The position numbers and the translations under genes were made by a program. Source: a virus. Taken from it: DNA of 64,000 nucleotides. Below the pieces are notes generated by a model, which was not told where the DNA came from, did no database searches, and saw nothing but the letters and a program-made list of their open reading frames with translations. The stretch is from IMG/VR virus record IMGVR_UViG_3300044568_003873, positions 23,978 to 87,977 of that record; one strand, written 5' to 3'. Below, one piece after another: positions 28,952-58,252 of the stretch (the first letter of the stretch is position 1; each line of letters opens with the position of its first letter).

Positions 28952-29355
28952 TGTAGTTCAATTCCTGTAATGAGAACGTCCTCCACCTCGGGATTCATAT
29001 CGGTGTAAATCATTCGTATTGTTGACACTTTTCTTCTTAGAAAGTCCTCCACCCACATCGTTATAAGTTGTTCAAATACAGATTTGTCCTCCTTAAACCA
29101 AATTAAAAAATTTTCGTAAAGTTGAGTGTTATACCAAAGTTTTCCGAACCTTTTAAATCCTATAATCCATCCTTTAGTGTCTGGATTTATAATCCAAATG
29201 GATTCAGGATTGTATTCAAATCTATTTTCAGGAGTATCTACATAAATGTTATAACCCTCCATTTCCATCTCCATGAAAGTATAGAATGCTCTGATCAAAG
29301 ACGGTTTGATATCCGATGTTTCCTCTTTTAATATTTTCTTGATTAGGTCTTTCAT
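28948..29355 (-). CDS. Leader protein, paralogue of its upstream neighbour, function unknown
   Basis: A 135-residue protein starting with the shared leader MKDLIKKILKEE. The body (RAFYTFMEMEMEGYNIYVD, NPESIWIINPDTKGWIIGF, SVFEQLITMWVEDFLRR) is a clear paralogue of the 29352-29825 gene, so the pair arose by tandem duplication. It carries the short 'VEDVL' segment near the end. No catalytic motif is seen. It overlaps both neighbours by 4 bases. The aromatic, single-domain form resembles small internal phage proteins; no function can be given. Confidence 0.78.
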   Translation of the reverse strand: MKDLIKKILKEETSDIKPSLIRAFYTFMEMEMEGYNIYVDTPENRFEYNPESIWIINPDTKGWIIGFKRFGKLWYNTQLYENFLIWFKEDKSVFEQLITMWVEDFLRRKVSTIRMIYTDMNPEVEDVLITGIELQ

Positions 29356-39962: not shown

Positions 39963-39968
39963 TTTTTT

Positions 39969-41591
39969 TTATCCTTGTAAATTTATTAGTCCCCAGAACG
40001 AATTACTGTTGGGATAACCTGTCGCTGTTTGACCGTTTATAGAGTATGCGAAATAATACAAATCATTATTTCCATAATCTTCGTTTGGTGTAAATACTAT
40101 TGTACCTAGATCTTCACCTGTAGTATTATTTGTTGAAATTACTGCTTGATCAACGATTGGTGAGAAATCTCCATCCAATAAGAAATTACCTCTGAAGTTT
40201 CCAATTGCAAACTTATATCCCTCAGCACAGATATGGAATCGGTATTCTTCATTTCTTGTCAGAGTAATAGTTGGGTTATTGGGTATGTAATTATCAAAAT
40301 CCCAACTATTTGTCACAGAATTTGTTATATTATAGTCTCTTGTAACGTTATAATCACCCGAACAACAATTGACTAACTCCAAGAACATCGGTGTCGATGA
40401 TGTTGGAGAAGGATTCTCAGGAAAACCGGGATAGAATTGGTATACACAATTATTCAACATTATATAGTGGAATGCAATCGATGGTGAAACACTTGTTGTG
40501 ATCGATGTCAACATTCCATAAGTAAGAGGTACATAACTTCCTGCGCTGAAAACATATACTTGTGAACTATCACCTACAACCGTGGGTCTTGGATCTGTTG
40601 AAATAAAACACAGGTTTGTTGTTATCAAATTACCTTCGGTCTTAATTTGCTCAATATCTTCACAATTCAAGAAGTCACAAATATGAACATTAACAGTATC
40701 TAAAGTACCAAATAAATTAGCAAAAGTATTGATAGGTTGTTCACTATCTTGGTTATACTTTGTTTCGGCACTAAAACAAGTGTAACCAAAAGGACTTGGA
40801 GTCGGAGTTTTGGTCCTTGTTGGTGTAATTGTTGGTGTTTTGGTGACTGTTCTTGTAACTGTAGGGGTTGGTGTAGGTGTTTGTGTATTATTTGGTGTTT
40901 GTGTTACTGTTGGAGTCACAGTCTGTGTTGGTGTCTGTGTTGGTGAAACAGGTACACCACAGCAAATAGATTCAGAGGTATCCAATAAGAAGTTCAGACC
41001 AGGTATTGCCTGTGCGGTTTCAATCGAAATTGAACTCAAAATAACACAATCTGTGATCAATTGTTGATTTTCGACACCTTCGGATAATAAAAATTTGTCG
41101 GTTGTTTGATCACATAAAGTGTACACAACTTGTATTTGTTCGGGACAAATTGTTGAAGACTGTCCACCTGTATTACATGTATACCAAACATAGATATTTT
41201 CAAAACAACTACAGGGTACTGTTGTTGTTGGGGTTGGAGTTGTTGTAGTTGTAGGTGTTCTAGTCACTGTTGGTGTAACAGTGCGGGTAACGGTATTTGT
41301 TGGAGTAACTGTATTTGTAGGTGTATTTGTTGGTGTTGGTGAAATCGGAACTTGACCAACAACATTTTCACAAATACAACCAGTGTCTGCTGAAATTATG
41401 TATTCATAACAAGTAACACCGTCTAAACCAAACTCGTCGGCACTTAGGTCAACATAAATTGGAAAAGTGGCCGCATTTATGTCATTTGCCACCAAAATAT
41501 TGGAACCGCCTTCACAATCACTTACATATACGTCATAAATTGTAGCCCCCGCGGCTGGATTTGTCAAATTTATTTGAATCGTTGTTGGCAT
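39969..41591 (-). CDS. Mucin-like adhesin 2: Cys-rich and beta domains on Thr-Pro stalks
   Basis: A 540-residue protein with the same plan. Its N-terminal domain (YDVYVSDCEGG, CYEYIISADTGCICEN) is a paralogue of adhesin 1. A stalk ([19 protein letters not shown]) leads to a Cys-rich domain CSCFENIYVWYTCN...ESICCGVP, the same type as in adhesin 1. A second stalk (TPTQTVTPTVTQTPNNTQ) leads to a domain of about 100 residues (FSAETKYNQDSEQPIN start) and a C-terminal beta domain (LTRNEEYRFHICAEGYKFAI, NDLYYFAYSINGQ) that resembles a cupredoxin-like or lectin-type beta sandwich. This end is probably the receptor-binding part; that is inference. Confidence 0.78.
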   Translation of the reverse strand: MPTTIQINLTNPAAGATIYDVYVSDCEGGSNILVANDINAATFPIYVDLSADEFGLDGVTCYEYIISADTGCICENVVGQVPISPTPTNTPTNTVTPTNTVTRTVTPTVTRTPTTTTTPTPTTTVPCSCFENIYVWYTCNTGGQSSTICPEQIQVVYTLCDQTTDKFLLSEGVENQQLITDCVILSSISIETAQAIPGLNFLLDTSESICCGVPVSPTQTPTQTVTPTVTQTPNNTQTPTPTPTVTRTVTKTPTITPTRTKTPTPSPFGYTCFSAETKYNQDSEQPINTFANLFGTLDTVNVHICDFLNCEDIEQIKTEGNLITTNLCFISTDPRPTVVGDSSQVYVFSAGSYVPLTYGMLTSITTSVSPSIAFHYIMLNNCVYQFYPGFPENPSPTSSTPMFLELVNCCSGDYNVTRDYNITNSVTNSWDFDNYIPNNPTITLTRNEEYRFHICAEGYKFAIGNFRGNFLLDGDFSPIVDQAVISTNNTTGEDLGTIVFTPNEDYGNNDLYYFAYSINGQTATGYPNSNSFWGLINLQG

Positions 41592-41609
41592 TTTCCTTCT
41601 TTTTATTTT

Positions 41610-43817: not shown

Positions 43818-43836
43818 TATATCTTTTTTTTTCTAT

Positions 43837-45069
43837 TTATTCGGGATAATCATAAACATAACCCTCAGCGTCAGGATCCAAACAAATCAAGTTGGTTGGT
43901 GTAACACTTGGTGTTGGAGTTATAGTTGGTGTTATTGTTGAGGTTGGTGTTGGTGTAGGTGTAACTGTACTTGTAGGTGTTGGACTCACACCAATTGGAT
44001 ATGAGTAACATCCCATAATCTCATAACAATCAACAAAATTAGATTCACAATCGGAACATGGTGACGTTGGTGTAACACTACTTGTAGGTGTGATTGTAGG
44101 TGTTTTGGTGATAGTTGGTGTAACTGTTGGTGTCCTTGTAACTGTGGGTGTTGGAGATGTAATTACTTGACATGATGGGCATATTGAAGATGAACAAGTA
44201 GACCCATCTGGTGCTGGATAATATAAAGTTCCCGTTCCTCCTTGAGTCAATGGCTTATAACAATTACCCAAATAACTGATGACTCTACCTTGTAGAACCC
44301 AAGGATTAGATGAATTTACCTGAACCGCAGTCAACGGAACCACAACCTCCAAATTAGGTAAAATTCCACAACAATCTTGGAAAATATATTGTACATTTGG
44401 AATAACAACTCCTTGGAATGTAACTTCAGTATATCGATCAACAACAGTTGTTTCTAATGAAGTAGATGTAAATGCTGAGATATTGGAATATCCTGGTTCA
44501 ATTTCACTATAAGAATTAAACGGTAATTTAGAAATTGTTTCCCCACTTAAAAATCCTGTGGGTATTTCTATCAACGATCCAATTGAAATCTCTGTACCTC
44601 CTGTTGTTTTTAAAGTGTTTGTGAATCGATATGAGATGTCCTCAGTTGCTATACTATCTCTTACCAACACATAATTCGCCAACAGAGAACCCGAACTATA
44701 TGTTGAATATAGATTCAAAGTGACACCGGAATCAACAGAAGATGTTGGTGTAGGTGTTGGTGTCGGTGTTTTAGTTTTAGTTGGTGTAGGTGTTTGAGTT
44801 TTAGTTGGCGTCGGTGTTGGTGTTACAAAATTAACTTGTCCGGTACATTGAGCCAACGTTGTTGGTTCTTCTACCAAATATTCAAAACAAGTTACAGATC
44901 CACTGAGAACGGCATCTACGTTAAAATAATAAGGAAACCCACTGTAAGGAATAGTATCGATCGGAGATCCCCAACTACCCGAACCACATTCACGAATATA
45001 TATCTCAAAATTATATGATCCACCAGAAAGATTGGTTGCCGTGATCGATATTTGTCCTTGTGTAGCCAT
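43837..45069 (-). CDS. Mucin-like adhesin 3
   Basis: A 410-residue protein. The N-terminal domain (YNFEIYIRECGSGS, CFEYLVEEPTTL) is a diverged relative of those in adhesins 1 and 2. A short stalk ([20 protein letters not shown]) leads to a domain of about 190 residues (LNLYSTYSSGSLLANYVLV, then EIEPGYSN, YIFQDCCG, YLGNCYKP, CSSSICPSC). That domain is a paralogue of the domain in the 744-residue protein next door. A second and third stalk flank a small Cys segment (CSDCESNFVDCYEIMGC). It starts from a CATATTTATA box. Likely a fibre or adhesin component. Confidence 0.78.
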   Translation of the reverse strand: MATQGQISITATNLSGGSYNFEIYIRECGSGSWGSPIDTIPYSGFPYYFNVDAVLSGSVTCFEYLVEEPTTLAQCTGQVNFVTPTPTPTKTQTPTPTKTKTPTPTPTPTSSVDSGVTLNLYSTYSSGSLLANYVLVRDSIATEDISYRFTNTLKTTGGTEISIGSLIEIPTGFLSGETISKLPFNSYSEIEPGYSNISAFTSTSLETTVVDRYTEVTFQGVVIPNVQYIFQDCCGILPNLEVVVPLTAVQVNSSNPWVLQGRVISYLGNCYKPLTQGGTGTLYYPAPDGSTCSSSICPSCQVITSPTPTVTRTPTVTPTITKTPTITPTSSVTPTSPCSDCESNFVDCYEIMGCYSYPIGVSPTPTSTVTPTPTPTSTITPTITPTPSVTPTNLICLDPDAEGYVYDYPE

Positions 45070-45082
45070 TCAAGTTTTTTTT

Positions 45083-45092
45083 TATAAATATG
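45083..45092 (-). promoter_or_regulatory. TATTTAT-box promoter candidate for adhesin 3
   Basis: Minus-strand CATATTTATA followed by nine A residues, 13 bases before the ATG at 45069. Confidence 0.45.
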
Positions 45093-45126
45093 TTAATTTG
45101 GATAAAATTTCATTTGAAGTAAAAAT

Positions 45127-47361
45127 TTATCTTCTTGGTGTAGACGTTGGTGTAGACGTTGGTGTCAGAGTCACCTTATCTTGAGTCGGTGTTATTGTTG
45201 GTGTTGGTGTTTTAGTTCTTGTGACCGTTGGTGTTGGTGTTTTAGTTCTCGTAACAGTTGGTGTGTTTGTGGTTGTAGTAGTAGGAGTAATTGTTTGTGT
45301 TGGTGTTAATGATATTGTTGGTGTGAGTGTGGTAGTTGGTGTAAGTGTTGGTGTAAGTGTCACCGTTGATGTAGGAGTTGGTGTTAGATATTCAAAATTA
45401 CCTATACATTCTAAAAAGAAAGTTTGGAATGAAGATTCGCAGTTCAAAAAGTATGGGATAGTGTTTACATCACATTCCAAAAAGTAATTTTGTGTAGTTA
45501 CTTGACATTCAATAATAAATTCTTGAGTAGATATTTCACATTCAATGAATAAATTTTGAGAAGAACCTGAACAATCTATAAAAAAAGGATCCGATGTGCC
45601 CACACAATCAATGAAAAATGGAGTCGCAGAACCAATACAGTCAATAAAAATTGCAGAAACATTACTAGAACAAAGCAGACTATTAGGATTTGTAGAGGTT
45701 GGTGTTAATGTTGTTGTGATAGAAGGTGTTACTGTTTTAGTCGGTGTTGGTGTTGGTGTTTTTGTTAGTGAAGGAGTTGCAGTCTTAGTTGGTGTAACAG
45801 AAGGTGTTGGTGTTGGTGCAATGTAACAAGAACAAAATCTTTGATCTGTGCAATCCCCGAAAAAGTCAGCACCATACCTCAAACCAATAAACGTCGATTG
45901 TATCGGCCCTTCAATTGGTGAATAACAAGTACCACTATAAACAATACCACCACCCAATGAATGCCATTCAAAAGTAGTTACTTGAACTTCTATATAATCG
46001 GGACCTGGATCACTTTTGTCACAACACTTTTCGAAATAAACAAAACCTGTTATTGGTGTATAATCTTCAAAAACAACTTTGACATACTTATTGAAAGAAG
46101 TATTTCTTCTTGTTGAAACTACATTGACAAATGATGTTGATCCTTTTTCTATTTCCGTATTATAATCAACATCTCTTAGAAGAACTTCAGTACGACCAGT
46201 AATTGATCCTGCATTTATAGTAACACCCGTCGTAATTGTAATTTGTTGATCTGTAACTTTATTATATAAGACATTATCAAACGAAATTATCACATTTTCA
46301 TCTGATATTGATGATGCTGTGAAAGTGTAAACAATCCTTGTTGAACCAGATCCATATTCAGATCCAAAATTTATAACCAATTCACTCAACGGTGTTAGTG
46401 AAGGTGTGTTTGTTGGTGTTACGGTATTCGTTGGTGTTACGGTATTCGTTGGTGTTACAGTATTTGTCGGAGTAGATGTTGGTGTTACAGTATTTGTCGG
46501 AGTAGATGTTGGAGATAATCCTGGTGTTGCGGTACTTGTTCTTGTAACAGTATTGGTGGGTGTGATACTCGGGGAAAGTCCGGGAGTGACTGTATTTGTC
46601 GGTGTAATAGTATTTGTGGGTGTAACCGTAACAGTTGGAGTTTGCGTTATTGTATTTGTAGGTGTAATAGTTGGTGTAACAGTACTTGTTCGTGTAATTG
46701 TAGGAGTAACTGTCCTTGTGGGTGTAGTAGTTGGCGTAACAGTACTTGTTCGTGTAATTGTAGGAGTAACTGTCCTTGTGGGTGTAGTAGTTGGCGTAAC
46801 AGTACTTGTTCGTGTAATTGTAGGAGTAACTGTCCTTGTGGGTGTAGTAGTTGGTGTAACCGTAGGAGTAGATGTCGGAGTTCTTGTGGGTGTTTTTGTT
46901 GGTAGAGGTGTTTTTGTTGGTAAAGGTGATATTGTACTTGTTGGTGTTGTGGTCGGAGTTGGTGATGGTAGTATTGAAATCGGTTTATCAGTAGAACAAC
47001 AATCAACTGAACTTTGATCATAAATTGAATCGATAATACCTATTTTTATTTTTTCTGTTATAGGAAAAATTTGAGATCCGTAATTGTTGGATATATTAAA
47101 CTGCCCGAAATAAGACCCTATTTTTTTTGTGTAGTGTGAAGTAAATTGATAAGATAGTATAATTTTCGAATCAGTTATTTCATAACTGGCAATATCTTTC
47201 AAAATTCTCTTAACACCTGTATTTTCCTCTTCCATTGAAAAGAAAATGGTAGAACCTGTAATACTGGTTAATAAACCGTTATACAGATTTCTACCATCAA
47301 CAAGTAATTCAACCTTGAGAATTGGTAAACTAGAGGATTTTTTTATAAAAAAATTTATCAT
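45127..47361 (-). CDS. Mucin-like adhesin 4 with 11-residue Cys repeat
   Basis: A 744-residue protein with five parts. The N-terminal domain (1-125) is shared with the 37424-37798 gene. A stalk of about 190 residues follows ([20 protein letters not shown]), containing a near-exact 60-base tandem repeat. Then comes a domain of about 190 residues paralogous to adhesin 3 ([38 protein letters not shown]). Short stalks lead to eight cysteines at exactly 11-residue spacing, in units like [12 protein letters not shown] final Thr-Pro stalk runs to the C-terminus ([12 protein letters not shown]). It starts from a TATATTTATA box. Probably a long glycosylated fibre; no enzyme motif. Confidence 0.8.
45394..45651 (-). 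repeat. Eight-fold 33-base repeat encoding an 11-residue Cys motif
   Basis: Cys codons fall every 33 bases from 45637-45639 down to 45406-45408. Each unit reads roughly [PN][FY]F[IL][DE]Cxxxxx. The DNA copies are diverged, so the protein spacing is under constraint. Confidence 0.85.
46390..46960 (-). repeat. Long Thr-Pro stalk repeat of adhesin 4
   Basis: Degenerate short-period repeat on the minus strand encoding about 190 residues of alternating Thr, Pro, Val, Ile and Arg ([26 protein letters not shown]). Confidence 0.85.
46681..46860 (-). repeat. Three tandem copies of a 60-base unit
   Basis: 46681-46740 and 46741-46800 are identical and 46801-46860 differs at one base (GGCG to GGTG). 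They encode a 20-residue stalk unit and show recent expansion. Confidence 0.95.
47069..47078 (+). other. No feature: placeholder not used
   Basis: Nothing is annotated at this position beyond the adhesin 4 coding sequence; this entry carries no claim. Confidence 0.01.
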
Positions 47362-47378: not shown

Positions 47379-49061
47379 CTATGATTCTTTTCTTAATTTT
47401 CCGTCGTAATGATCAAATCGATTATGTTCTGTTGGTGTCAAAAGGAGGATTCCCGGTGTAATTCTGTCTTTAAGAGTTTCTTGGTAAATGTAAGACATCC
47501 ATGTTTGCTCATGAGGATGTGCCCAAGTAGTTTCTAAAAACATTTTTTTATTTCCTTCTCTCGTCACAATTTGTGGCCAATTTGAATAATAAACTTCTCC
47601 GCTGGCATACGGTATACCTTTGTAACTCTTGATGTTTTTAAATGAAGTTTTGGGTGCATTTGGATCTAAACCATGAGTAGGTAATTTATTATATTCGGGC
47701 CATTTTTGGTTTCTAAAGTCTTGAGGTACATTATACCAAGACCACTGTGTTGAATTATCTCCGTAAAATTCCGTAAAGTTGAGTTTTAAGAAATCAAATC
47801 CTTCATTTTTTGTAATTTCCAATGATTTAGAATATATTTGTGAAACTTTCCTACCAAAACCATTTTTACAAAAATCCTCTACACCACCATAAAAAAACAT
47901 ATCATCTTCAAAGAAAAACATAAAATCTGAATCACTCTCTTCAAAATGTTCAGCAATATATTGTCTTCCCCCACAAATACCTAAGTTTTCAGGAAATTTA
48001 ATTTGTGTAAACTCATACTCTTCACAAAGTTCATCATAATGATTATCAGTACTTCTATCTGTCGAGTTATTCAATAAATATTTTTTTGGCTTTTCGATGA
48101 AATCGTCATCATAATGAATAAATGAATTTATTAATTTTTCAAATTGTTTTGGACTATTGAAGGTAATAACGTAAACTGAAGTTTTATTTAAGTCTAAACT
48201 TATATTCTTATTTAATATTGTTGTTTCGTTTTTCACTTTGAGACTGGAATTTTTTAAATCCTCAAAAAATTTACTTAATAATCCATTTGATTCAATTTCA
48301 AAATAATCAAACTGTTGGGGGTATTTGTAAACCATTATTGAAAAAATACTTTCTTCAGTACCCATAAAACCTCTATTTAGAGTGTCATTGGTGAAACCAT
48401 AGTAAAGATTCATAGCGTCGGATATTTGATCTTTTGGACCACCGAAAAAACCACCTCTAGCCACTTTTTTAACTTTAGTACCGGATAATTTACAAATTTC
48501 ATCGTAGTTAAATCCGTGAATTTCACCATCCGCATCATACGGGAAACAAACAAAAGAAAATTTGTTTATAAATTTTGGTAATTTTTCCAAAACTTTGTCA
48601 TGCGTAAAATAACCAAGGTGAACAGTATTAGTAATTCCAGCATCTAACCAAAACATATATTTCGAATCAAACTGATCCATTATTTTGGCATCATTTAATA
48701 AAAACATTTTTTGCATAACCAAAGGATTATACATTTCCAATTTAGCTTGAGTAGATTCACTTAACCACCCTTTTTGATTGAACCAGTTAGGATCCGTTCT
48801 GATTGATTGTATTTTTTCATAAAAATTACCTTTGAACCAATCCAAGTTTCTTTCAATAAATTGAATTTCGTTATGTGTTTTGTGTACATTAACAAACTCC
48901 CTCAACTCTGAATCACCAAATATGATCAAATTGGTAGGTATTTTGAGAATATCCTTGAACTTACTCAAATAGTGTGATTCAAAATCACGTCCCCATCCTT
49001 CAGATAAAGCACCTCTACCTAAATCCCATAAACCTGTTACTAAAGTTACGTTACTCATCAT
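47379..49061 (-). CDS. Two-domain glycosyltransferase: HtrL/YibB-like plus GT2
   Basis: The 560-residue protein is a fusion. Residues 1-270 resemble the HtrL/YibB family: NVTLVTGLWDLGRGALSEGW, ESTQAKLEMYNPLVMQKMFL, then KYMFWLDAGIT with an aspartate at the expected metal site, and GGFFGGPKDQI. Residues about 290-560 resemble a GT2-like GT-A domain: SVYVITFNSPKQFEKLINSF, ENLGICGGRQYIAEHF, then MFFFEDDMFF with an acidic DD motif. Two active sites in one chain would allow sequential sugar addition. It is the last gene of the operon, 17 bases from the adhesin 4 start, and overlaps the methyltransferase upstream by 4 bases. Sugars unknown. Confidence 0.82.
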   Translation of the reverse strand: MMSNVTLVTGLWDLGRGALSEGWGRDFESHYLSKFKDILKIPTNLIIFGDSELREFVNVHKTHNEIQFIERNLDWFKGNFYEKIQSIRTDPNWFNQKGWLSESTQAKLEMYNPLVMQKMFLLNDAKIMDQFDSKYMFWLDAGITNTVHLGYFTHDKVLEKLPKFINKFSFVCFPYDADGEIHGFNYDEICKLSGTKVKKVARGGFFGGPKDQISDAMNLYYGFTNDTLNRGFMGTEESIFSIMVYKYPQQFDYFEIESNGLLSKFFEDLKNSSLKVKNETTILNKNISLDLNKTSVYVITFNSPKQFEKLINSFIHYDDDFIEKPKKYLLNNSTDRSTDNHYDELCEEYEFTQIKFPENLGICGGRQYIAEHFEESDSDFMFFFEDDMFFYGGVEDFCKNGFGRKVSQIYSKSLEITKNEGFDFLKLNFTEFYGDNSTQWSWYNVPQDFRNQKWPEYNKLPTHGLDPNAPKTSFKNIKSYKGIPYASGEVYYSNWPQIVTREGNKKMFLETTWAHPHEQTWMSYIYQETLKDRITPGILLLTPTEHNRFDHYDGKLRKES

Positions 49062-49687
49062 TCTTTAACTTTACAAACCCAAGCTGCTTTTTTAAATAAA
49101 TCATAATCATAGAAAGACAGATTGTTTTTTTGAGATTTACTTACTATGTCAGATTCTTTAATTTCACACCAATTCCAAATTTTATTTTTCATTTCATTTT
49201 CAAATACCTCGTCATTTAAGCAAAAATCATGTGCCAATATAAAGTCACCGACCTTTAAAAAATCAGATAATAAATTAAATTCTCCGATTTTATACCCTCC
49301 GTCACAAAGTACTATAGTTATACCATCTTCCCTTATGAAGTCAATGACCTCCTGATTAACATTAGTCCAATCATCTGAAAAAATGTTTTCAACACGAACG
49401 TCAATACCTTTTTCAATCATTTCTCTATACCAAGGTCTTTCGGAAATATCATATGATAGTATTTTGACATCTAATTTGAGTTCTTTAGTAATTATATCTA
49501 AAAATTCAGTAAAACCACCCAAAGCAGTTCCTATTTCTAAAATCCTCTTGGGTTTTACTCTTGAAATAAAGTCATAGAATACTTGGTACGCCTCGTGAGT
49601 TTGTTGTGCCGAATGATAGTCAAAGGCCGATAGACTGTCATTATCTATCAAGTTTGTAAATTTAGTAATTCTTGTTTGTATATTCAT
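49058..49687 (-). CDS. SAM-dependent methyltransferase 1 of the sugar operon
   Basis: The 209-residue class I methyltransferase-like protein has the glycine-rich SAM loop RILEIGTALGGFTEFL (about 49-64), then ILSYDIS (acidic end of strand two) and a later LCDGGYKIGEFNLLSDFLK, GDFILAHDFC. This pattern is like the Methyltransf_24/cephalosporin-hydroxylase-type families often found in sugar clusters. It overlaps the next gene by 4 bases and starts 2 bases after the upstream stop. I infer O-methylation of a glycan. A hydroxylase-type role is an alternative, because relatives with that fold exist. Confidence 0.8.
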   Translation of the reverse strand: MNIQTRITKFTNLIDNDSLSAFDYHSAQQTHEAYQVFYDFISRVKPKRILEIGTALGGFTEFLDIITKELKLDVKILSYDISERPWYREMIEKGIDVRVENIFSDDWTNVNQEVIDFIREDGITIVLCDGGYKIGEFNLLSDFLKVGDFILAHDFCLNDEVFENEMKNKIWNWCEIKESDIVSKSQKNNLSFYDYDLFKKAAWVCKVKE

Positions 49688-49689
49688 AT

Positions 49690-50403
49690 TTAAAACTTTT
49701 TATGTAAGTTATTAGATTTATCATAAAATTTAAAACAATTTGGTAACAAGTATCTAAAAGCTTCGTAATCCCATTTCATATCAGACTCCAAAGCAGAAAC
49801 ACCTATTTCGAATCCGTCAGGGTAATTCCTTATATTATTTTTTATAGAGTACCACAAAAACTCCTCCCATCTCCTAACGAAAAATCTGAATTTCCAATTA
49901 TTTTTAAACACTAAAAATTGTTCATTAACTACATGAGCTTCATCCCATTTATTATGATCGAAGACGTTATAATCAAATAATTTCCTGTCAAAAAAACAAT
50001 TTTGTAAATCTTTTTTGTGGTCACCAATTTTGGCAGGTCTTTCAAATAATAAATCTAAATTATTTTTTTCCATATAATTGAACATGTTAATAATTTTTTG
50101 TTCACTAAAACCTTCCGAAGTCATCCAATCGGCGTCGTTAAAAATGATGTAGTCAAATTCCTTATCTAAACAATATTTGAGGGATAATACTTTTAAATTC
50201 AAGTAAAATGAAAATCCAGCACCGTCATCGTGATATTTGTCTAACTTAAATAAATCTAAATTGATTCTATCACTTACATCCATCGATTCGTTTGTTGTAA
50301 TATTAAAACTTGCTGAACATTTTTCACTTAATTGATTATAACAATTGATTGCATTTTCCAAGTACGAATTACCAACAGCCAACGTTGTAAAAATGTATTT
50401 CAT
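49690..50403 (-). CDS. Putative GT-A glycosyltransferase
   Basis: The 237-residue protein starts MKYIFTTLAVGNSYLENAIN, a strand then helix with the usual GT-A nucleotide-binding opening. YIIFNDADWMTSEGFSE (about 84-100) gives a DxD-like metal motif. WDEAHVVNEQFLVFKNNW and FEIGVSALESDMKWDYEAF fit acceptor-side helices. It resembles small family-6-type or uncharacterised GT-A enzymes; I cannot name the family. It overlaps the fucosyltransferase gene by 4 bases. Confidence 0.72.
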   Translation of the reverse strand: MKYIFTTLAVGNSYLENAINCYNQLSEKCSASFNITTNESMDVSDRINLDLFKLDKYHDDGAGFSFYLNLKVLSLKYCLDKEFDYIIFNDADWMTSEGFSEQKIINMFNYMEKNNLDLLFERPAKIGDHKKDLQNCFFDRKLFDYNVFDHNKWDEAHVVNEQFLVFKNNWKFRFFVRRWEEFLWYSIKNNIRNYPDGFEIGVSALESDMKWDYEAFRYLLPNCFKFYDKSNNLHKKF

Positions 50404-51383
50404 GATTCAACAATTTTCTCTAGAAAATTAAGTGTGTAATCAAAATCATAGTAAATTGGTAATTCATTATTCAAAAAAAGAGGGGCTTCAATATATTTTT
50501 TATACAAATTGTCGTCATTATCTATTCTCTTGATTAACTCCAAAAAATCATTCAAATCCGAAAAATTATGCAAATTTACGAAACTATCAGGGTTAAATCC
50601 CTCCTCTAAAATATATTGATTCCCGTAGAAAATAGGAATAGCACCCGAAAAAAAAGCATGATATAACTTTTCCTGTAATATATAATCAGTATTTGTGTAG
50701 TGTATTGCAATATTAAATTTATACTTTTGAAAAAACTGTATTTTTTCTCTGTAAGTCAATCCATCGTTTCTTCCAATATAAACTTGATTCAACCATTGAT
50801 ATTTGTTCAGTTCATCTTTTGGATCTATATTTTGTCTCCAAGGGCCTGATGACGTAACCATCTTATATTCATTTAATTTGTCAAAGACTAAACCTCTAAA
50901 TTTATTATCTGATGCCTGTGTTATTGAACAAAATCCTGTGTTTCTATTCTTAATTTGATCAATATTCCTCTTTTGAGTCAACCAAGATAATGGACTATCA
51001 ACCAATCTTGATTCGTCATATAATGTCCACACATCGAACACACCAGATGGTTGTCTCAAATATCTTTCGTGTTCAAATTTATTGTAACCTATCGCCCACT
51101 GATTGTCATTTGCAAATATAGGTCCTGAAAAATCGGCGACTTCACCTGAAACATAAATAAATTTTTTATTCTTATCATTCTGTCTATATTCTGTAGGTAA
51201 ATGATTGGTATATGTATCGATTTGTTCTCTATTATAGTGTAGATCCGAGTGTATTACAATGTCAGGATTAATTGGATCAATAAGTACATTATATTTTTTG
51301 GATAGTACAAATTTAAAGTAACTCATCCAACTGTGTTGACCGTGATTTGGAAACCCTTGTCTAGTTATTCTGATAGTTTTCAT
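50400..51383 (-). CDS. GT10-family fucosyltransferase
   Basis: The 327-residue protein has the GT10 donor-binding end at about 223-255: FNIAIHYTNTDYILQEK, then LYHAFFSGAIPIFYG, then GFNPDSFVNLHNFSDL and YKKYIEAP. This follows the alpha-1,3-fucosyltransferase pattern of a basic EK pair, 'G.IP...G' and 'SF....F...'. The first 200 residues hold the acceptor domain (HSWMSYFKF, VSGEVADFSGPIF). Enzymes of this family move fucose from GDP-fucose onto GlcNAc-containing glycans. No GDP-fucose synthesis genes are visible here, so the host must supply it. It overlaps both neighbours by 4 and 23 bases. Confidence 0.85.
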   Translation of the reverse strand: MKTIRITRQGFPNHGQHSWMSYFKFVLSKKYNVLIDPINPDIVIHSDLHYNREQIDTYTNHLPTEYRQNDKNKKFIYVSGEVADFSGPIFANDNQWAIGYNKFEHERYLRQPSGVFDVWTLYDESRLVDSPLSWLTQKRNIDQIKNRNTGFCSITQASDNKFRGLVFDKLNEYKMVTSSGPWRQNIDPKDELNKYQWLNQVYIGRNDGLTYREKIQFFQKYKFNIAIHYTNTDYILQEKLYHAFFSGAIPIFYGNQYILEEGFNPDSFVNLHNFSDLNDFLELIKRIDNDDNLYKKYIEAPLFLNNELPIYYDFDYTLNFLEKIVES

Positions 51384-52080
51384 TAATAAATTGAGTTAAT
51401 TTTATGGTATTATCGTTGAAGGGTCCATTATCATGAATTATAAACGCATTTGAATTTAACAATGTTACTTTATTATTTTCGATTTCTACATAGTCTTTAT
51501 TATCTAACGTACTGAAAAAGAAGTTTTTTTCTTGATCGATGATAATATCATCATTCAATAGATATTGAATTGTCCATCTTCCTTGATCATCAATACCCGT
51601 TTGATATTCTTTAGTAATAATATCCTCTAAATGATAGATTATTTTTTCAGTGTATCCGAAATATGTACCTGAGTTAAGATATTTGGAATTGTTTATAGAC
51701 CTTTTTTTTTCATATAAGTGAGTATAGTTAGTCGGTGGCCACAAACCCTTCTCAGCTCCCATAACTATACTACAATTCAATGAATGAAAATCTTCAACTA
51801 TATTTTTTGGTGAACCGATAAAATTTGTGTCCGTGGCATCTAAAAATAGTATATATTTATACTTCCCAAGAATTTGAGATTTAATGTATTCTAAAAGATT
51901 TACTATTTTATAGTAATACAGTTTGTCATAGTAAGATCCATTCTTAACCAAACCAGAATTTCTGACTATGTGAATATCCTCAGATGAAAAATATTTCAAC
52001 GCGTTTTTATAAAAAGATGGTTCGTAATAATCAGGATAGTCAAATAATACTGTAATCAGGCAAATTTTTTCATTTTCCAT
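51361..52080 (-). CDS. Procollagen-type (PLOD-like) glycosyltransferase
   Basis: The 239-residue protein follows the glycosyltransferase domain of lysyl hydroxylase/PLOD and procollagen sugar-transfer enzymes: YILFLDATDTNFIGSP with Asp81 and Asp84, MGAEKGLWPP (108-116), KYLNSGTYFGYTEK (133-146), and IDDQGRWTIQYL (163-174), then IIIDQEKNFFFSTL. No hydroxylase domain is present. I chose the ATG at 52080 because it directly follows the upstream stop (52082) and the first strand starts there; an in-frame ATG at 52110 would add 10 residues that only overlap the previous gene. Viral and bacterial relatives exist. Likely adds hexose to a fibre glycan or protein. Confidence 0.82.
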   Translation of the reverse strand: MENEKICLITVLFDYPDYYEPSFYKNALKYFSSEDIHIVRNSGLVKNGSYYDKLYYYKIVNLLEYIKSQILGKYKYILFLDATDTNFIGSPKNIVEDFHSLNCSIVMGAEKGLWPPTNYTHLYEKKRSINNSKYLNSGTYFGYTEKIIYHLEDIITKEYQTGIDDQGRWTIQYLLNDDIIIDQEKNFFFSTLDNKDYVEIENNKVTLLNSNAFIIHDNGPFNDNTIKLTQFINENYQNN

Positions 52081-52081
52081 A

Positions 52082-52714
52082 TTAATTATCCAATTGTCTA
52101 TAATATTCATTAATTAAGTTACTATCTGATTGAAACGGTATACCATTTCCGAATACTTTTATAGGTATTTCCTTTTCCCAAAAAAAAGAAATTTCCTTAC
52201 CTTTATTTTTCATCAAGATTTCATCACTTCTAACATCATTTTCAATCCAAGAAAATTTTGGAAAAATAACAACTTCATTGTTAATAATTTCTAAAAATTG
52301 TTTATGATGGGCATTACCACGATATTTATTTTGGTATAAAAACGAAAATTCATCATATTTTGATGGTGACGCAATAAACCCCTCAAGTGATATTTTAGTC
52401 AACAAGTCTGTTAATTCCAAAGGATTAAATACATCTTCAATTGTGTGTGAGCAAATAGAGAAATCAAATTTTCCATAGGTTTCGACATATGATAATATCT
52501 CACCCCATGTGGTTTTATCTTCCAAATTCAAATTAAAAAAAGTAACATCATCCTTATTGACAACAATCGAATCGGCAACAAATTTACACTCAGGATAAGA
52601 CCAAAACATGTAAGATGCACCAACATCAACTGTTTTCAAATTGTTGTCGGATATATATTTTTTTATGTCTTCCCTTTTACCACCGGTGGTGTTATATGTC
52701 CAACTTTTTATCAT
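52082..52714 (-). CDS. Methyltransferase-like protein 2 of the sugar operon
   Basis: The 210-residue protein has a class I methyltransferase start, LKTVDVGASYMFWSYP (28-43) where a G-x-G loop is reduced to VGASYMF, and FDFSICSHTIEDVFNPLELT (about 92-111), the usual strand-four motif. The SAM loop is short, so activity is less certain than for its neighbours. GNAHHKQFLEIINNEVVIF suggests an acceptor region. It follows the next gene by 2 bases. A catalytically weakened or noncanonical enzyme is possible. Confidence 0.7.
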   Translation of the reverse strand: MIKSWTYNTTGGKREDIKKYISDNNLKTVDVGASYMFWSYPECKFVADSIVVNKDDVTFFNLNLEDKTTWGEILSYVETYGKFDFSICSHTIEDVFNPLELTDLLTKISLEGFIASPSKYDEFSFLYQNKYRGNAHHKQFLEIINNEVVIFPKFSWIENDVRSDEILMKNKGKEISFFWEKEIPIKVFGNGIPFQSDSNLINEYYRQLDN

Positions 52715-52716
52715 CT

Positions 52717-53277
52717 TTAATCAAAAAAAACAACACCAGTCCCTGATACATGACCCAAGTTGGTGATTTCCATTTTATCTTCATTTATTGTCTCCCAAAA
52801 CTGAGACATTTCATTATTCAAACGTATGTCGTCTAATATCAATATTCCATTATAATTAATTTTTTTCAAATAGTTCAAAAAAATAAGTTCAAAATCTCCT
52901 GTATGGAAAGTATCTAACAGAATTATTTTGGAATCTAATATGATTTCTTTGTATTTATCACTCATTACGTCATCGACTATAAACTCAACATTTTGCGGTT
53001 TTTCTTTCAATTGTAATTGATCTGTCAAATTAAATGAGTAAACTTTATTTGTTTTGTTTGCGGCCAAAGCCAATGCTGAACAACCTAATAAAGTACCGAC
53101 ATCAACAAATGATACACCATCAAAATAATTGGATAAAAAAGTTAGTAGTCGATAGTGTTCCTGAGATGATTTTTGTAAAAAATAATTTTGATATTCTTCA
53201 TTATTGATTAAAGAATAAGATTCCATTTTCAACTCATCCAAGTCTTCATTTTTTAAATTGAGAAATAAATCTTTCAT
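52717..53277 (-). CDS. SAM-dependent methyltransferase 3 of the sugar operon
   Basis: The 186-residue protein has SFVDVGTLLGCSALALA (about 55-71) as the SAM loop, KVYSFNLTD, then EFIVDDVM and ILLDTFHTGDFELIFLNYL and GILILDDIRL (about 145-155). This is the Methyltransf_24 pattern. It differs from methyltransferase 1 in detail, so the two may act on different positions. It starts 4 bases after the GT60-like gene and ends 2 bases before methyltransferase 2. No transmembrane or secretion signal is present. Confidence 0.82.
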   Translation of the reverse strand: MKDLFLNLKNEDLDELKMESYSLINNEEYQNYFLQKSSQEHYRLLTFLSNYFDGVSFVDVGTLLGCSALALAANKTNKVYSFNLTDQLQLKEKPQNVEFIVDDVMSDKYKEIILDSKIILLDTFHTGDFELIFLNYLKKINYNGILILDDIRLNNEMSQFWETINEDKMEITNLGHVSGTGVVFFD

Positions 53278-53281
53278 TTTT

Positions 53282-54526
53282 TTATAAATTTCCTGTCATT
53301 CTTTCACCCCACCCTTTAGATTCAGAGTGTGGCCAAACAACCCAATATGCAGGTTTTTCTTCAGCATTGAAAGTTCTCCAAACTTTACAATACCCGTCAG
53401 GATCTCTAAAAAACCCTTGAATTTCGTGTTTATCCGCATCCTTACGGTATATTGTTTCATCCTTGTGATCATGGAATGCAACCACCCAAAAATCATAATC
53501 TCTTTCGGGAACCTGATCATAGGCAACATCGATACAATGTTTGAATTGTTTTGTGAATGAGTTGATCCAGTCTTCCTCCGTTTCGTAATTATTTGGATTT
53601 GGTGGATATTCCTTATCCAAAGTGTATTTTTGAACCGCTCTTTTACTAAAGAGGAGACCTGAATATTTTTCATAATCTCTTAAAGTTCTGACGGGACCAA
53701 ATCCAAATTGACCTAAGTCAACCATTTCTTCACCATCCATACCAAAAAGTTGTCTGTTTCTCTTATGAGAATGATTGTTCTTTTCAACCCACTTCTTATC
53801 GTCATCCCACTGTTTGGTTCGTCCTTTTCTTGTGTATTCGTGATAAACAACTACCTTGTGAGGGTGAAACAAATCATATCCGTGAGTGTATGCTCTTGCT
53901 GCGATGCTGATTTCCTCTCCGTGGAAATAATATTCAGGGTCGTGTTGAACTTCTTTTGAAAATTTTCCGAGTGTGAAGCAAAAGTGAGCGGAATAAAATC
54001 TAGCGGGAACTGGTTTGGTTAGTTCAGTCCAACCAGGTATTGTTTCAGGTAGGAAGAAAACTGCACCCTCGGGGATAAATCTATCGAATGCCATTCTCCA
54101 AGGATCTCTTGCTCTTCCTGCGGGGTCATTATCAGGATCAAATGAACTTACATATCCTGTTAGAAGTGGTTTCTCATGTCCATCTTCTTGTAGTTGGTCA
54201 ATCATATCGATCAAAGTGGTGTCCCAACCCTTTTCGAATCTCATATGTGAATCGATTTGGAGGGTATAGGTTTCATTCCTATAAAGTTGTTGGATAAGGT
54301 GTCTCGCCCAACAAGCTCCGTTTGATTCTTCGTAAGGTATATCTAAAATTCTGAATCTATCATCATTTCTAAATTCTTCTAATTTATCAAAACCGTCCTC
54401 TTCTTTATATTGTCTTGCAATACCAAACCTTAATTTTTCGGGTCGATCGGCGTTTGAAATCATATCCCTAACTGTGTTTTCTAATTCGGGATCTCTGTAT
54501 GATGCTATTTGGACAAATATAGTCAC
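53282..54526 (-). CDS. GT60-like polypeptide alpha-GlcNAc-transferase
   Basis: The 414-residue protein matches the GlcNAc glycosyltransferase family (Pfam PF11397, CAZy GT60). It has IFVQIASYRDPELENTVRDM (3-22), NGACWARHLIQQLY (69-82) and YTLQIDSHMRFEKGWDTTLI (87-106), where DSH is the metal motif; then RFYSAHFCFTLGKF and HGEEISIAARAYTHGYDL. Known members put alpha-GlcNAc on hydroxyproline in Skp1 (Dictyostelium) or on Thr in trypanosome mucins. The last 90 residues are a separate domain with DFWVVAFHDHKDETIYRK. The start is GTG (54524-54526). First gene of the operon and the likely initiating enzyme for glycosylation of Thr-Pro stalks; that link is inference. Confidence 0.85.
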   Translation of the reverse strand: MTIFVQIASYRDPELENTVRDMISNADRPEKLRFGIARQYKEEDGFDKLEEFRNDDRFRILDIPYEESNGACWARHLIQQLYRNETYTLQIDSHMRFEKGWDTTLIDMIDQLQEDGHEKPLLTGYVSSFDPDNDPAGRARDPWRMAFDRFIPEGAVFFLPETIPGWTELTKPVPARFYSAHFCFTLGKFSKEVQHDPEYYFHGEEISIAARAYTHGYDLFHPHKVVVYHEYTRKGRTKQWDDDKKWVEKNNHSHKRNRQLFGMDGEEMVDLGQFGFGPVRTLRDYEKYSGLLFSKRAVQKYTLDKEYPPNPNNYETEEDWINSFTKQFKHCIDVAYDQVPERDYDFWVVAFHDHKDETIYRKDADKHEIQGFFRDPDGYCKVWRTFNAEEKPAYWVVWPHSESKGWGERMTGNL

Positions 54527-54588: not shown

Positions 54589-55809
54589 TTAACTATTAAC
54601 TAATCCAGATTGACAATAAGTAGAACCATCAACAGTTATTGTGTTGTTGGAGTTGAAACCTTGAACTTGGTAAGTACTGACATTATTAAGATCTATAAAA
54701 TTCAATTGAGATCCATCCCACGCTTCAATTCCCATTAAGGCCGCAACCCTATCGATTCTATTGAATATTCCTATATCAATGCCTGAACTCATAGTTCCAC
54801 CGGCAAAGTTCAGACCAACAACTTTCCAAGTTCCTCCGAAATTTCCAAAAACCGCGGAACCCGAATCACCGGGTATTGATGGGTCAGGACAATCTTGATC
54901 TACTCTAGTATAGGCAATTTGATTTGCAAATCTCTTACCCCAAACGTATCCGTCGTTGTTTTTTCTATATCCATTAACCATAGATGAATAATTTACATAT
55001 AATGCTTTTAGTCCACACAATGAACCTTCTTTCGGTCCTGATGATCTACCGGACGCGGCTAAAGGAATATTATTTGTTAAAATAGAATCAAGCTCAGCGG
55101 TTGTTGCAAATACAGGGGGTGTTGTAAAACTCAATCCATATTGTTTGAAAGATTCACTATTTGACAATACACTTTCTTTTAAAGCCACTAAACAACAATC
55201 AATTTCAGCCGAACCAGTATTATAAAGTAAAGTACAATACATAACACGGCCTAAGTTATAAAAATCTGTTTCGTAAGATGAACTTTCACCTGGTTGATAA
55301 ATTTGTTCAATTAGGGAGTTATAATCAAACGTACAAGGTGGTTCTTTACAAAGGTCATTTGCATTAAAATGTACTTTTAGTGCAACGTGTAAATTAGTAA
55401 CACCAACCAATGCACCTGTTTCAGTATGTTTAGCCAAAAAACCAAGAGTTCCAATACCATCAGTTGTTTTTCTTATTGAAATACCACCCTTTATTGGTCT
55501 TATATAAGATCTATTTGGTACTGGATTAAAGATACAGGTTGAATTAAATTCTGTTGGACAAGGATGAACGTTCAGTGTTGTACTTTCAACAACATCGGTC
55601 TTCAAAATAGTCCCACCAACATTTATTCTCGATGGTATTAGATCACTTTGAGTTAAATTTTCTATTGGTTTTTTTTCGTCAACAAAAAAAACTATAGATA
55701 ATTCATCAGTAACCACACCATTTTTGATTTTTTTTCCCAAACAAATTGAATCATTGTTATATTCTATCTTTAAATTTTCAATTGATTGGAGTAAATTGTT
55801 CGTTTCCAT
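54589..55809 (-). CDS. Trypsin-like serine protease with N-terminal prodomain
   Basis: The 406-residue protein has the chymotrypsin-fold triad: His141 in GVTNLHVAL, Asp204 in AEIDCCLVAL and Ser316 in IPGDSGSAVFG. The N-terminal 80 residues (LGKKIKNGVVTDELSIVFFV, NLTQSDLIPSRINVGG) match the domain seen before many bacterial trypsin-like proteases. A pair CC follows the aspartate and further cysteines (CPTEFNSTCIF, KEPPCTF) may form disulphides. No signal peptide. It overlaps nothing, but is 2 bases from the next adhesin gene and lies between adhesin 5 and the sugar operon. Possible roles: processing of fibres or attack on host-surface protein. Location in the virion is inferred. Confidence 0.85.
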   Translation of the reverse strand: METNNLLQSIENLKIEYNNDSICLGKKIKNGVVTDELSIVFFVDEKKPIENLTQSDLIPSRINVGGTILKTDVVESTTLNVHPCPTEFNSTCIFNPVPNRSYIRPIKGGISIRKTTDGIGTLGFLAKHTETGALVGVTNLHVALKVHFNANDLCKEPPCTFDYNSLIEQIYQPGESSSYETDFYNLGRVMYCTLLYNTGSAEIDCCLVALKESVLSNSESFKQYGLSFTTPPVFATTAELDSILTNNIPLAASGRSSGPKEGSLCGLKALYVNYSSMVNGYRKNNDGYVWGKRFANQIAYTRVDQDCPDPSIPGDSGSAVFGNFGGTWKVVGLNFAGGTMSSGIDIGIFNRIDRVAALMGIEAWDGSQLNFIDLNNVSTYQVQGFNSNNTITVDGSTYCQSGLVNS

Positions 55810-55811
55810 TT

Positions 55812-58208
55812 TTACAGCGTATTAAATCTAACAAAGACAGTTCTTATACCCGAAGCGGTAGGTGTTTCTGAAATAGAAGGCGTAATTGATGGTGTTATAG
55901 TAGTTGTCGGTGATACGGTTGGAGTTTGAGTCTGAGTTGGAGTTTGAGTTGGTGTTGGAGTAGTTGTCACCGTTGGTGTCGTCGTAACTGTTGGTGTCTG
56001 TGTTGGAGTTTGAGTGGGGGTTACACTTGGTGTTTGTGTTGGAGTAAGTCCAGGTGTAACTGTTTGACTTGGAGTTAAAGATATTGTTGGTGTGATACTC
56101 GGAGTAATAGATGGTGTAGGGGTTTGTGTAGGTGTTTCTGTGGGTGTTACTGTTGCCGTGGGTGTAGGTGTTTCTGTGGGTGTGGGAGTAATTGTTTGAG
56201 TAGGTGTTATTGTTTGGGTAATTGAAGGTGTAAGTGTTGGTGTTACTGTTGGCGTATTTGTTGGAGTTTTGGTGACCGTTGGTGTAACTGTAGGTGTTGG
56301 GGTTGGTGATGGTGTTGGTAAAGGTTCGAAATTTTCACAATCCAAACAGAAATAATCAAAGAGATCATAAGTATTTCTTAAAATTCTGTTATTGTGTTGA
56401 ACTTGTCCACCATTCAATGGTTCGGCATAGAATCTAAATTCTGAAATTGCACCATCAAAAGTTCCCCCAAAGTACTTTTCTAATAAAATACCGGTCTCTA
56501 ATTGTGAAAGTGATGTACCTGACAAAACTGTATCGGGAAATAACTCAGGATCCTGTTGGTAAGTGGTTCCTGTACAACTATTAAATGTTAGATTCTCCCT
56601 TAATCCTTGAGTACCACCACCCCATGACATTGAATAACTTACACCGATTTGTTTTTCTTTTTCGGTATTCAAAGGTCTTGGAATAATTTCCTCAAAGTTT
56701 TCTACGATCATAAATAAATAACCATTGAGATATACTTTCAAAGATCCAAGTCTTTTATCTTTTGAGTCAATGAAATCTCTATTCATAACGACTCTTTGGA
56801 CGGGGTATTCTTTTTCTTGGTCGTGAGTATAAGGTGGTTGAATTAAACTTAAAGTGTCACCTCTTTCAGTTGCAGGGTAAATTAAGGAACTCATTTCCCC
56901 AATTCCACCTTCATAGAATAAGTCACATCCCTCGTAGAAAGTATATCGTTTGAATACGACATCAACCTGTAACCATTTTTCAGTATTCAAAAAGTCAGTT
57001 TGGTTGGTACTTCCCGAACAGAAATCGTAAATTCCAATATTGGAATAAATGTTGTTGATTGTATATCCTGTTAAATAATATTCGTGTGTTTCACAATCCG
57101 CAGTTGTTTGACATGCTCCCGTGATGGTAATTGTCCTTATATTAATTTTTGGGTTTTTTGGGTCACCCGATAATCGTATTGCAAATGAATTTGATAATAC
57201 ATCTATCGTTGGATCTTTGGGTGGTATGGCAACCACTTTGTGTTCACATGCATTTCCACAAACGGTACAATCCGTTCCTTGATAGGTGTCACCTGATATT
57301 GGGTAAACATTGTAACAATCTGAAGTGAATGCCGTCAAAGTACAAGAACAAGTTTTCAAACAACTTAATTCTTCGGTTACTCGTGTATAAGCTGTGTAAC
57401 TTTCAGGATGACCTGTGGCATAATGATAGAATTTATCTTCCGCTCTTGTCCCCATATAGAAGAAAATCCCTGCGTTATTTGGATAGATTTCGTTTAGAGT
57501 GGTCTCACCTGCGCCGGGTTCAAATTCATCATATATTCTTGGCTTTATTACCGTCTCCATAGACCATCCGAGTTCATATCTTTCGGGTAATATTTGCCAA
57601 TCATATTCGTATAGTTTGTAAAAACCTTGATAAAAACCACCATATAATTCTTGGTAGTATCCTATACCCGCCTCTTGTTTTGAAACTATATTATATAGGG
57701 TGTTTGCCGTTATACCTGAAAATCTTGAGTTGGGTGATCTTACATTTGATGTGACCGAAATTAATTTAAGATGTCTATCGTATGTTAATCTGTCAAATTT
57801 GTTAATTGAATCTAATAATCCTCTTGTGTAATAGAGTGTTTCACCACTCATTCTGTCTGTGAGTCCATTGTCAATTCCTGTTAATCCAACATCACAAATT
57901 CCACTCAACGAGTAACAAGATGCATCAACTAAATCAGGAAAAGGATAGAACTTATCCGATACTAAATTATTATCAGTTTCAAAATCATCGTAAAATAATT
58001 CGAGTTGAGGTGAACAATCCGGATCCCACAATCTTATATTAACAGGTAATACATTTCCGTCATCAAAACCGATCAAATTTGTTGAAAATACGGTCTCCTG
58101 ATCATATTCAATTTCATCTTTAGATAGATAAAAATCATAATACTCAGAAGTATCCAATCTCAATTTAATGGAGTTGTTGGAATGATTTCGGATATTTTGT
58201 ATTCCCAC
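55812..58208 (-). CDS. Mucin-like adhesin 5 with lectin-like body and C-terminal Thr-Pro stalk
   Basis: A 798-residue protein. Residues 1-620 are beta-rich with cysteine clusters (SCLKTCSCTLTAF, CTVCGNACEHK) and a concanavalin/LamG-like part: KEYPVQRVVMNRDFIDSKDK, GSLKVYLNGYLFMIVENF, then GGTFDGAISEFRFYAEPLNG. Residues about 625-785 are a stalk of Thr-Pro repeats ([32 protein letters not shown]), ending GIRTVFVRFNTL. The stalk is at the C-terminus here, reversed from the other adhesins. The start is GTG (58206-58208), supported by the TGTATTTAT box upstream; nearby ATGs are absent. Lectin-like domains bind sugars, so this may be the receptor-binding protein. Confidence 0.8.
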   Translation of the reverse strand: MGIQNIRNHSNNSIKLRLDTSEYYDFYLSKDEIEYDQETVFSTNLIGFDDGNVLPVNIRLWDPDCSPQLELFYDDFETDNNLVSDKFYPFPDLVDASCYSLSGICDVGLTGIDNGLTDRMSGETLYYTRGLLDSINKFDRLTYDRHLKLISVTSNVRSPNSRFSGITANTLYNIVSKQEAGIGYYQELYGGFYQGFYKLYEYDWQILPERYELGWSMETVIKPRIYDEFEPGAGETTLNEIYPNNAGIFFYMGTRAEDKFYHYATGHPESYTAYTRVTEELSCLKTCSCTLTAFTSDCYNVYPISGDTYQGTDCTVCGNACEHKVVAIPPKDPTIDVLSNSFAIRLSGDPKNPKINIRTITITGACQTTADCETHEYYLTGYTINNIYSNIGIYDFCSGSTNQTDFLNTEKWLQVDVVFKRYTFYEGCDLFYEGGIGEMSSLIYPATERGDTLSLIQPPYTHDQEKEYPVQRVVMNRDFIDSKDKRLGSLKVYLNGYLFMIVENFEEIIPRPLNTEKEKQIGVSYSMSWGGGTQGLRENLTFNSCTGTTYQQDPELFPDTVLSGTSLSQLETGILLEKYFGGTFDGAISEFRFYAEPLNGGQVQHNNRILRNTYDLFDYFCLDCENFEPLPTPSPTPTPTVTPTVTKTPTNTPTVTPTLTPSITQTITPTQTITPTPTETPTPTATVTPTETPTQTPTPSITPSITPTISLTPSQTVTPGLTPTQTPSVTPTQTPTQTPTVTTTPTVTTTPTPTQTPTQTQTPTVSPTTTITPSITPSISETPTASGIRTVFVRFNTL
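55855..56330 (-). repeat. C-terminal Thr-Pro stalk of adhesin 5
   Basis: Short-period repeat over about 160 residues on the minus strand, units such as TQTPTQTPTVTTTP and TPTETPTPTAT. Confidence 0.82.
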
Positions 58209-58240: not shown

Positions 58241-58252
58241 TTGTATTTATAG
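58241..58252 (+). promoter_or_regulatory. TATTTAT-box promoter candidate for the right-hand plus-strand block
   Basis: TTGTATTTATAG followed by ATAAAAAAAC and the ATG at 58266. It mirrors the minus-strand box 10 bases away, so both strands carry the same element in a 57-base gap. Confidence 0.5.

Follow-up and report, generated by a model that had tools for sequence, protein, structure and literature searches.

Animal polypeptide GalNAc-transferases of family GT27 are the initiators of mucin-type O-glycans, and mucin-type O-glycosylation of the GT60/GT27 type has been studied almost wholly in eukaryotes. Characterised members of family GT60, such as Gnt2 of Dictyostelium and TcOGNT-2 of Trypanosoma cruzi, also act on protein, the acceptor expected of the family being Thr or hydroxyproline. 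The T. cruzi pp-alpha-GlcNAcT transfers GlcNAc from the donor UDP-GlcNAc onto Thr of mucins, requires Mn2+, and accepts the peptide KPPTTTTTTTTKPP (PMC3769586).

Phage-encoded glycosyltransferases that modify virion proteins are described for mycobacteriophages, where the part of Freeman 2023 relayed by PMC12619734 names the capsid and the tail tube C-termini as targets. For the jumbo phage XacN1, PMC5852040 reports a proteomic analysis with at least two glycoproteins, ascribed by the authors, as a suggestion, to its two glycosyltransferases. HtrL_YibB proteins (PF09612) are found in bacterial LOS/LPS loci (PMC4172580). Homologues of the phage gene studied here are already catalogued as phrog_24687, as XacN1 ORF334 and as viral BFVD entries titled 'Glycosyltransferase, GlcNAc [uncultured Caudovirales phage]', with further BFVD entries in giant viruses. 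In searchable papers we found no substrate, partner or Thr/Pro link for genes of the phrog_24687/XacN1 ORF334 type, and the open-licence literature searched contained no paper tying phage GT60 to Thr/Pro proteins. What is new here is the genomic context: GT60 and HtrL form a conserved cassette, common to phages and bacteria, next to proteins of mucin-like type that are its probable substrates.

The window, the whole 64,000-nucleotide stretch of DNA analysed, makes up most of an 87,977-base virus record. As the sequence-only reading had it, the virus, a large aquatic one, is a tailed phage; the window holds a contractile tail sheath gene (phrog_23, E=2.6e-57) and a family B DNA polymerase gene.

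The GT60 gene and its predicted fold

The gene under study was first noted from the sequence alone, with correct coordinates and no strand. A 414-codon ORF occupies these positions on the minus strand, and the plus strand is closed by many stops.

53282..54526, minus strand: GT60/PF11397 glycosyltransferase gene, 414 aa, GTG start at 54526

The three motifs on which the family assignment had been based are present, ASYRDPEL at aa 8-15, ACWARH at aa 71-76 and LQIDSHMRF at aa 89-97, and the profile search confirms PF11397/GT60 (E=2.2e-76, 258 bits vs a cutoff of 21; the match covers profile positions 1-43 and 91-349 of 352). All 48 aligned relatives of the protein match PF11397 as well. The protein also matches PHROG 24687, annotated 'glycosyltransferase', with E=4.9e-169. 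Pfam gives PF11397 only, with no match to the GT27 profile, and NCBIfam has no model for the protein. A PDB search by sequence found no relative, while the fold search did find some.

The AlphaFold (AF2) model, based on 48 sequences, has a mean pLDDT of 93.5 and a pTM of 0.88. Every one of its top 19 fold matches in the PDB is an animal GT27 polypeptide GalNAc-transferase (best E=7e-11), and the catalytic core alone aligns to 4d11_F with TMt 0.65 and an rmsd of 3.5 A. In the structural alignment, the predicted model thus shows a GT-A fold near the polypeptide GalNAc-transferases. The DSH metal motif is retained, D92-S93-H94 being invariant in 81/81 rows; E204, E205 and H229 are likewise invariant in the 81 sequences, as are G203-E204-E205 and W240 in the GT60 alignments. 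We take the DSH motif as the counterpart of the DxH metal motif in GT27; by analogy with that family, H229 is probably the third metal ligand. The catalytic domain spans about aa 1-298. The C-terminal extension that follows it (about aa 299-414) is beta-rich and conserved, a segment of ~115 residues that is missing in the 300-aa proteobacterial relatives. From family and model, we predict a GT60 polypeptide glycosyltransferase that has a GT-A fold, is of the retaining type and depends on metal.

The phage enzyme shares with Gnt2 and TcOGNT-2 the Pfam family and the DSH motif and, presumably, UDP-GlcNAc as the donor and, as acceptors, Thr residues of mucin domains rich in Thr (PMC3769586). Unlike these enzymes, it would work without a secretory pathway or Golgi; it carries the conserved C-terminal extension, has an HtrL partner, and its candidate substrates are probable tail proteins with alternating Thr-Pro. 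With GT27 it has in common the GT-A fold and the initiating role that we propose for it below. It differs from GT27 in its low identity (about 11-18%), its GT60 profile and its C-terminal extension, in which Pfam recognises no ricin-type lectin domain.

The sugar-gene cassette and the Thr/Pro-rich proteins around it

GT60 had been read as the start of a sugar operon. Among the sugar genes it does come first, yet the run of genes on this strand opens upstream of it, with a Thr/Pro-rich protein (from 58208) and a protease-like gene. The earlier reading overlooked both the HtrL partner and the Thr/Pro-rich candidate substrates that flank the cassette on both sides. The genes that follow GT60 are listed below, with the number of the 47 non-redundant GT60 loci (defined in the next section) in which a homologue occurs.

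52717..53277, minus strand: probable methyltransferase, variable, 186 aa (Methyltransf_24 E=0.04, below cutoff; 3/47 loci)
52082..52714, minus strand: variable cassette gene, 210 aa, without family match (5/47 loci)
51361..52110, minus strand: PLOD-type glycosyltransferase domain, variable (PF25342 E=3e-16; 7/47 loci)
50400..51383, minus strand: GT10 (fucosyltransferase-type) glycosyltransferase, variable (PF00852 E=4e-11; 6/47 loci)
49690..50403, minus strand: variable cassette gene, 237 aa, without family match (7/47 loci)
49058..49687, minus strand: RMNT_CmcI-type methyltransferase, variable (PF04989 E=3e-9; 14/47 loci)
47379..49061, minus strand: conserved partner, 560 aa, HtrL_YibB domain at aa 3-253 (PF09612 E=4e-11) and a second GT-A/GT2-like domain at about 294-500 (GT2 E=0.006)

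The last of these genes is the constant one. An HtrL homologue lies downstream of GT60 on the same strand in 47/47 loci, although in one of them the contig ends there and the match covers only 54 aa. Between 0 and 10 genes separate the two, and phages differ in which genes these are (methyltransferases, GT10, PLOD-type). The AF2 model of the partner has a pLDDT of 87.8 and a modest pTM of 0.58. By Foldseek, at low whole-chain TM, it folds nearest to LH3, LARGE1 and the chondroitin/heparosan synthases, proteins with two GT domains or a similar build; its WxD and E-D-D motifs are conserved. Its N-terminal domain matches the HtrL_YibB of bacterial LOS/LPS loci. Here, unlike in those proteins, this domain shares its chain with a second GT-A domain and goes with GT60, a predicted protein glycosyltransferase. 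We also notice that the family of the PLOD-type domain is known from collagen glycosylation. A further glycosyltransferase (phrog_7162) lies at 60772-61986 on the opposite strand, and related genes occur on GT60's far side in 12/47 loci.

Five proteins of the window contain together 1,081 Thr/Pro-rich, mucin-like residues, including 392 Thr. They share the strand of the sugar genes at 47379-54526 and flank them on both sides: 37809-47361 holds four of them, and 55812-58208 the fifth. TPTPTVTPTVTKTPTNTPTVTPTLTP is an example of their Thr/Pro-rich stretches, and TPTVTPTVTKTPTNTP is a candidate acceptor peptide of the window.

58244..58251, minus strand: T4-type late-promoter-like TATAAATA, 36 bp ahead of the Thr/Pro-rich first gene of the run
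55812..58208, minus strand: candidate substrate, 798 aa, C-terminal Thr/Pro-rich segment at aa 621-792 (about window 55833-56348) with 69 Thr and 38 Pro
54589..55809, minus strand: protease-like gene, flanked by GT60 and the gene of the 798-aa protein (phrog_20754 protease E=9e-15; weak trypsin match E=0.07)
45127..47361, minus strand: candidate substrate, 744 aa, three Thr/Pro-rich segments at aa 122-333, 508-567 and 652-744, 152 Thr; phrog_15511
43837..45069, minus strand: candidate substrate, 410 aa, Thr/Pro-rich segments at aa 65-125, 290-346 and 351-403, 49 Thr
39969..41591, minus strand: candidate substrate, 540 aa, Thr/Pro-rich segments at aa 73-136 and 204-281, 49 Thr
37809..39962, minus strand: candidate substrate, 717 aa, Thr/Pro-rich linkers between other segments at aa 66-158, 224-267, 326-378 and 450-490, 73 Thr

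Relatives of the 744-aa protein occur in 45/47 loci, mostly directly after HtrL, and relatives of the 798-aa protein lie upstream of GT60 in 21/47. Four of the five proteins match phrog_15511, a family of unknown function, clearly, and the fifth does so weakly. Pfam gave no match for them, and PHROG gave no structural annotation, phrog_15511 being the only hit. From size, repeats and position we infer that they are probable tail fibres; the Thr/Pro segments may also be plain linkers. The antisense Gly/Val ORFs of this region (e.g. 46406-47017, plus strand) were rejected as genes and are by-products of Thr/Pro coding. The protease-like gene has a homologue in only 3/47 loci and is possibly a maturation enzyme of the adjoining protein.

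The TATAAATA site fits late expression of the run, which is suggestive only: the window (1-64000) contains 15 such sites against 7.1 expected, a count reached by 1/100 shuffles, and scans for promoter and terminator consensus sequences did not rise above shuffles.

Association of GT60 with Thr/Pro-rich genes in phages and bacteria

Close relatives of the window GT60 are encoded at no fewer than 181 places in IMG/VR. A copy in a tailed phage of this lineage is therefore not unusual, and the opposite statement of the sequence-only reading was overstated; a PHROG for these proteins, 24687, already exists. The label 'eukaryote-type' was misleading too. It describes the home of the characterised enzymes and not that of the whole PF11397 family, whose proteins occur in many phages, in giant viruses and rarely in bacteria. 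Strong full-length GT60 matches were found in 1/396 Bacteroidota genomes, which is the query genome itself, and in 3/300 genomes of the order of Caenimonas, query included. In INPHARED, at the sensitivity used, only XacN1, CM1 and RAS14 carry GT60; they are jumbo phages of Xanthomonas and Stenotrophomonas. XacN1 ORF334, one of the two glycosyltransferases of that phage, is the GT60 homologue (47.5% identity to the window GT60), ORF330 is HtrL, ORF350 and ORF325 are Thr/Pro-rich, and a carbamoyltransferase gene follows GT60. RAS14 also carries GT60, HtrL and Thr/Pro-rich proteins.

A Thr/Pro-rich ORF lies inside the 10 kb flanks in 66/80 GT60 loci. After redundancy removal at 95% identity, 47 loci remained, and 38 of them have such an ORF within 10 kb, compared with 2/30 control loci that were anchored on PhoH, came from viruses of the same kind and had no GT60 in the stretch (Fisher P=9e-11). 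With a looser detector the numbers are 40/47 GT60 loci vs 7/75 controls, and 7/47 GT60 loci lack a nearby Thr/Pro ORF even so. GT60 directly touches a Thr/Pro gene in 20/47 loci. Genes drawn at random from within each locus would be expected to do so in 6.8, and the observed count was reached in 0/20,000 simulations. Approached from the other side, IMG/VR records picked by the Thr/Pro DNA pattern alone contain PF11397 in 15/38 cases and those picked by the reversed pattern in 1/28; the size-matched comparison (15/38 vs 1/13, P=0.04) is marginal only.

Presence of HtrL follows that of GT60 closely. Among PhoH records it was found in 16/17 with GT60 vs 0/31 without (P=8e-12), and among records with the Thr/Pro pattern in 11/15 vs 0/23. 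The Thr/Pro proteins are themselves common in the lineage: the pattern still occurs in 22/31 PhoH records without detected GT60, and in 25/51 DNA-polymerase-anchored loci without GT60. DNA-polymerase anchoring was dropped as a neutral control, since the polymerase gene adjoins the Thr/Pro region. Within the clade, the contig-level test for the Thr/Pro pattern (17/17 GT60-positive vs 22/31 GT60-negative, P=0.018) is weak because Thr/Pro proteins are near-universal there, so we rely instead on the locus-level controls, the adjacency, the recurrence across lineages and the HtrL pairing. As Thr/Pro proteins are common in the lineage without GT60, co-location may partly reflect a shared fibre or diversification region. 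Many of the virus records are fragments, and the P values are overstated because the loci are related by descent.

The pair recurs on bacterial chromosomes. GT60 and HtrL lie beside a Thr/Pro-rich gene in Saprospiraceae (locus L483), Bacteroidia (L484), Jiulongibacter (L487) and Gemmatimonadota (L491). The Thr/Pro-rich protein of the Saprospiraceae locus contains a T9SS sorting domain (PF18962, TIGR04183). Jiulongibacter sediminis has two GT60 genes with a Thr/Pro-rich gene between them (L487:7945-11230), and a carbamoyltransferase follows GT60. In the Gemmatimonadota locus, the Thr/Pro ORF ends just before GT60. A Gemmatimonadetes locus (L488) has the GT60-HtrL pair without a convincing Thr/Pro neighbour. 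The GT60 of Caenimonas (L492) is more distant, and its divergent neighbour (L492:762-5099) is an adhesin-like protein of 1,445 aa that includes a very long PTPAP repeat. In the GT60 tree, the Saprospiraceae copies lie among phage copies, with 98/98 support for the grouping with L068; this fits an exchange of the gene between phages and bacteria, in a tree with long branches that gives neither date nor direction.

Two minor features of these bacterial genes are worth recording. The N-terminus of the Thr/Pro-rich protein of Jiulongibacter resembles, by eye, a twin-arginine-type signal, and the Thr/Pro-rich ORF L491:6720-7478 has a PqqD domain (PF05402), an unexpected tie to peptide-modification proteins.

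Proposed function and alternative explanations

We propose, as the probable reading, that GT60 adds the first sugar to Thr of the mucin-like, fibre-like phage proteins, that HtrL extends it, and that the variable genes diversify the product. In infected cells, GT60 would place this sugar on Thr of the Thr/Pro-rich segments, with GlcNAc as the most likely sugar and UDP-GlcNAc as its donor. The acceptors would be fibre-like, probably tail, proteins of the phage itself, whose genes lie to either side of GT60. The two-domain HtrL_YibB/GT-A enzyme would then lengthen the glycan, and interchangeable genes (fucosyltransferase-type, PLOD-type, methyltransferases, carbamoyltransferases) would vary its end. 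On the virion, this may give rise to stalks or linkers with a dense cover of glycans. Once glycosylated, the Thr/Pro stretches would form stalks that are stiff and resist proteases, and whose surface can change.

Protein as the acceptor, suggested already by the sequence-only reading, agrees with profile, fold and genomic context. Glycosyltransferases of phages often act on DNA (PMC12619734), and those of the cassette could add sugars to modified bases in the genome of the phage. PF11397 and the fold indicate polypeptide acceptors, however, and among the cassette genes scanned we found no base-modifying gene; moreover, the cassette sits among fibre-like genes, and bacterial genomes have it with a secreted protein. 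We regard DNA hypermodification as highly improbable. GT60 might instead target another virion protein (capsid, sheath or tail tube) and not the Thr/Pro-rich segments, for which the mycobacteriophage glycans on capsid and tail tube C-termini, as relayed from Freeman 2023 by PMC12619734, offer a precedent. The adjacency, however, is to Thr/Pro-rich genes, above the rate of other genes of the same locus, and it recurs in bacteria, which have no virion, so that a target elsewhere on the particle seems quite unlikely to us.

More can be said for an action on the host surface, in which the cassette would alter O-antigen, capsule or LOS, for example as a superinfection block, and would adjoin the fibre genes as both are fast-evolving host-range loci. 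Phage glycosyltransferase clusters, such as those of cyanophages (PMC7824862), are often interpreted so; HtrL_YibB is at home in LOS loci, GT10 and methyltransferases suit surface polysaccharides, and Thr/Pro proteins occur without GT60 too. Against this stand the characterised GT60 members, which act on protein, the nearest solved folds, which are polypeptide transferases, and the bacterial chromosomes in which a Thr/Pro-rich surface protein accompanies the pair. Nor did we recognise a sugar-lipid initiator, flippase or polymerase in those cassette genes that were scanned. On balance, we think a role at the host surface unlikely.

A wider and more tentative reading, which we hold at a little short of even chances, is that of a self-contained mobile mucin-making system of bacteria and viruses. 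GT60 would start and HtrL extend O-glycans on dedicated Thr/Pro-rich surface proteins, fibre-like virion proteins in jumbo phages and secreted ones in Bacteroidota/Gemmatimonadota, with interchangeable genes for the outer glycan. If true, it would be a virion antigenic-variation or receptor-mimicry system. A cytoplasmic prokaryotic or viral version of mucin-type O-glycosylation with its own substrates would be a simple system for dense Thr glycosylation. Such a version would also account for the abundant Thr/Pro-rich proteins (phrog_15511) of large aquatic phages and provide a testable reason for the changing sugar-gene sets of these phages. Two cultured phages with the same cassette, XacN1 and RAS14, make the proposal testable now.

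Apart from the cassette, we notice three adjoining small genes at window 28478-29825 with near-identical N-termini (MKDLIKKILKEET...), which form a tandem paralogue family.
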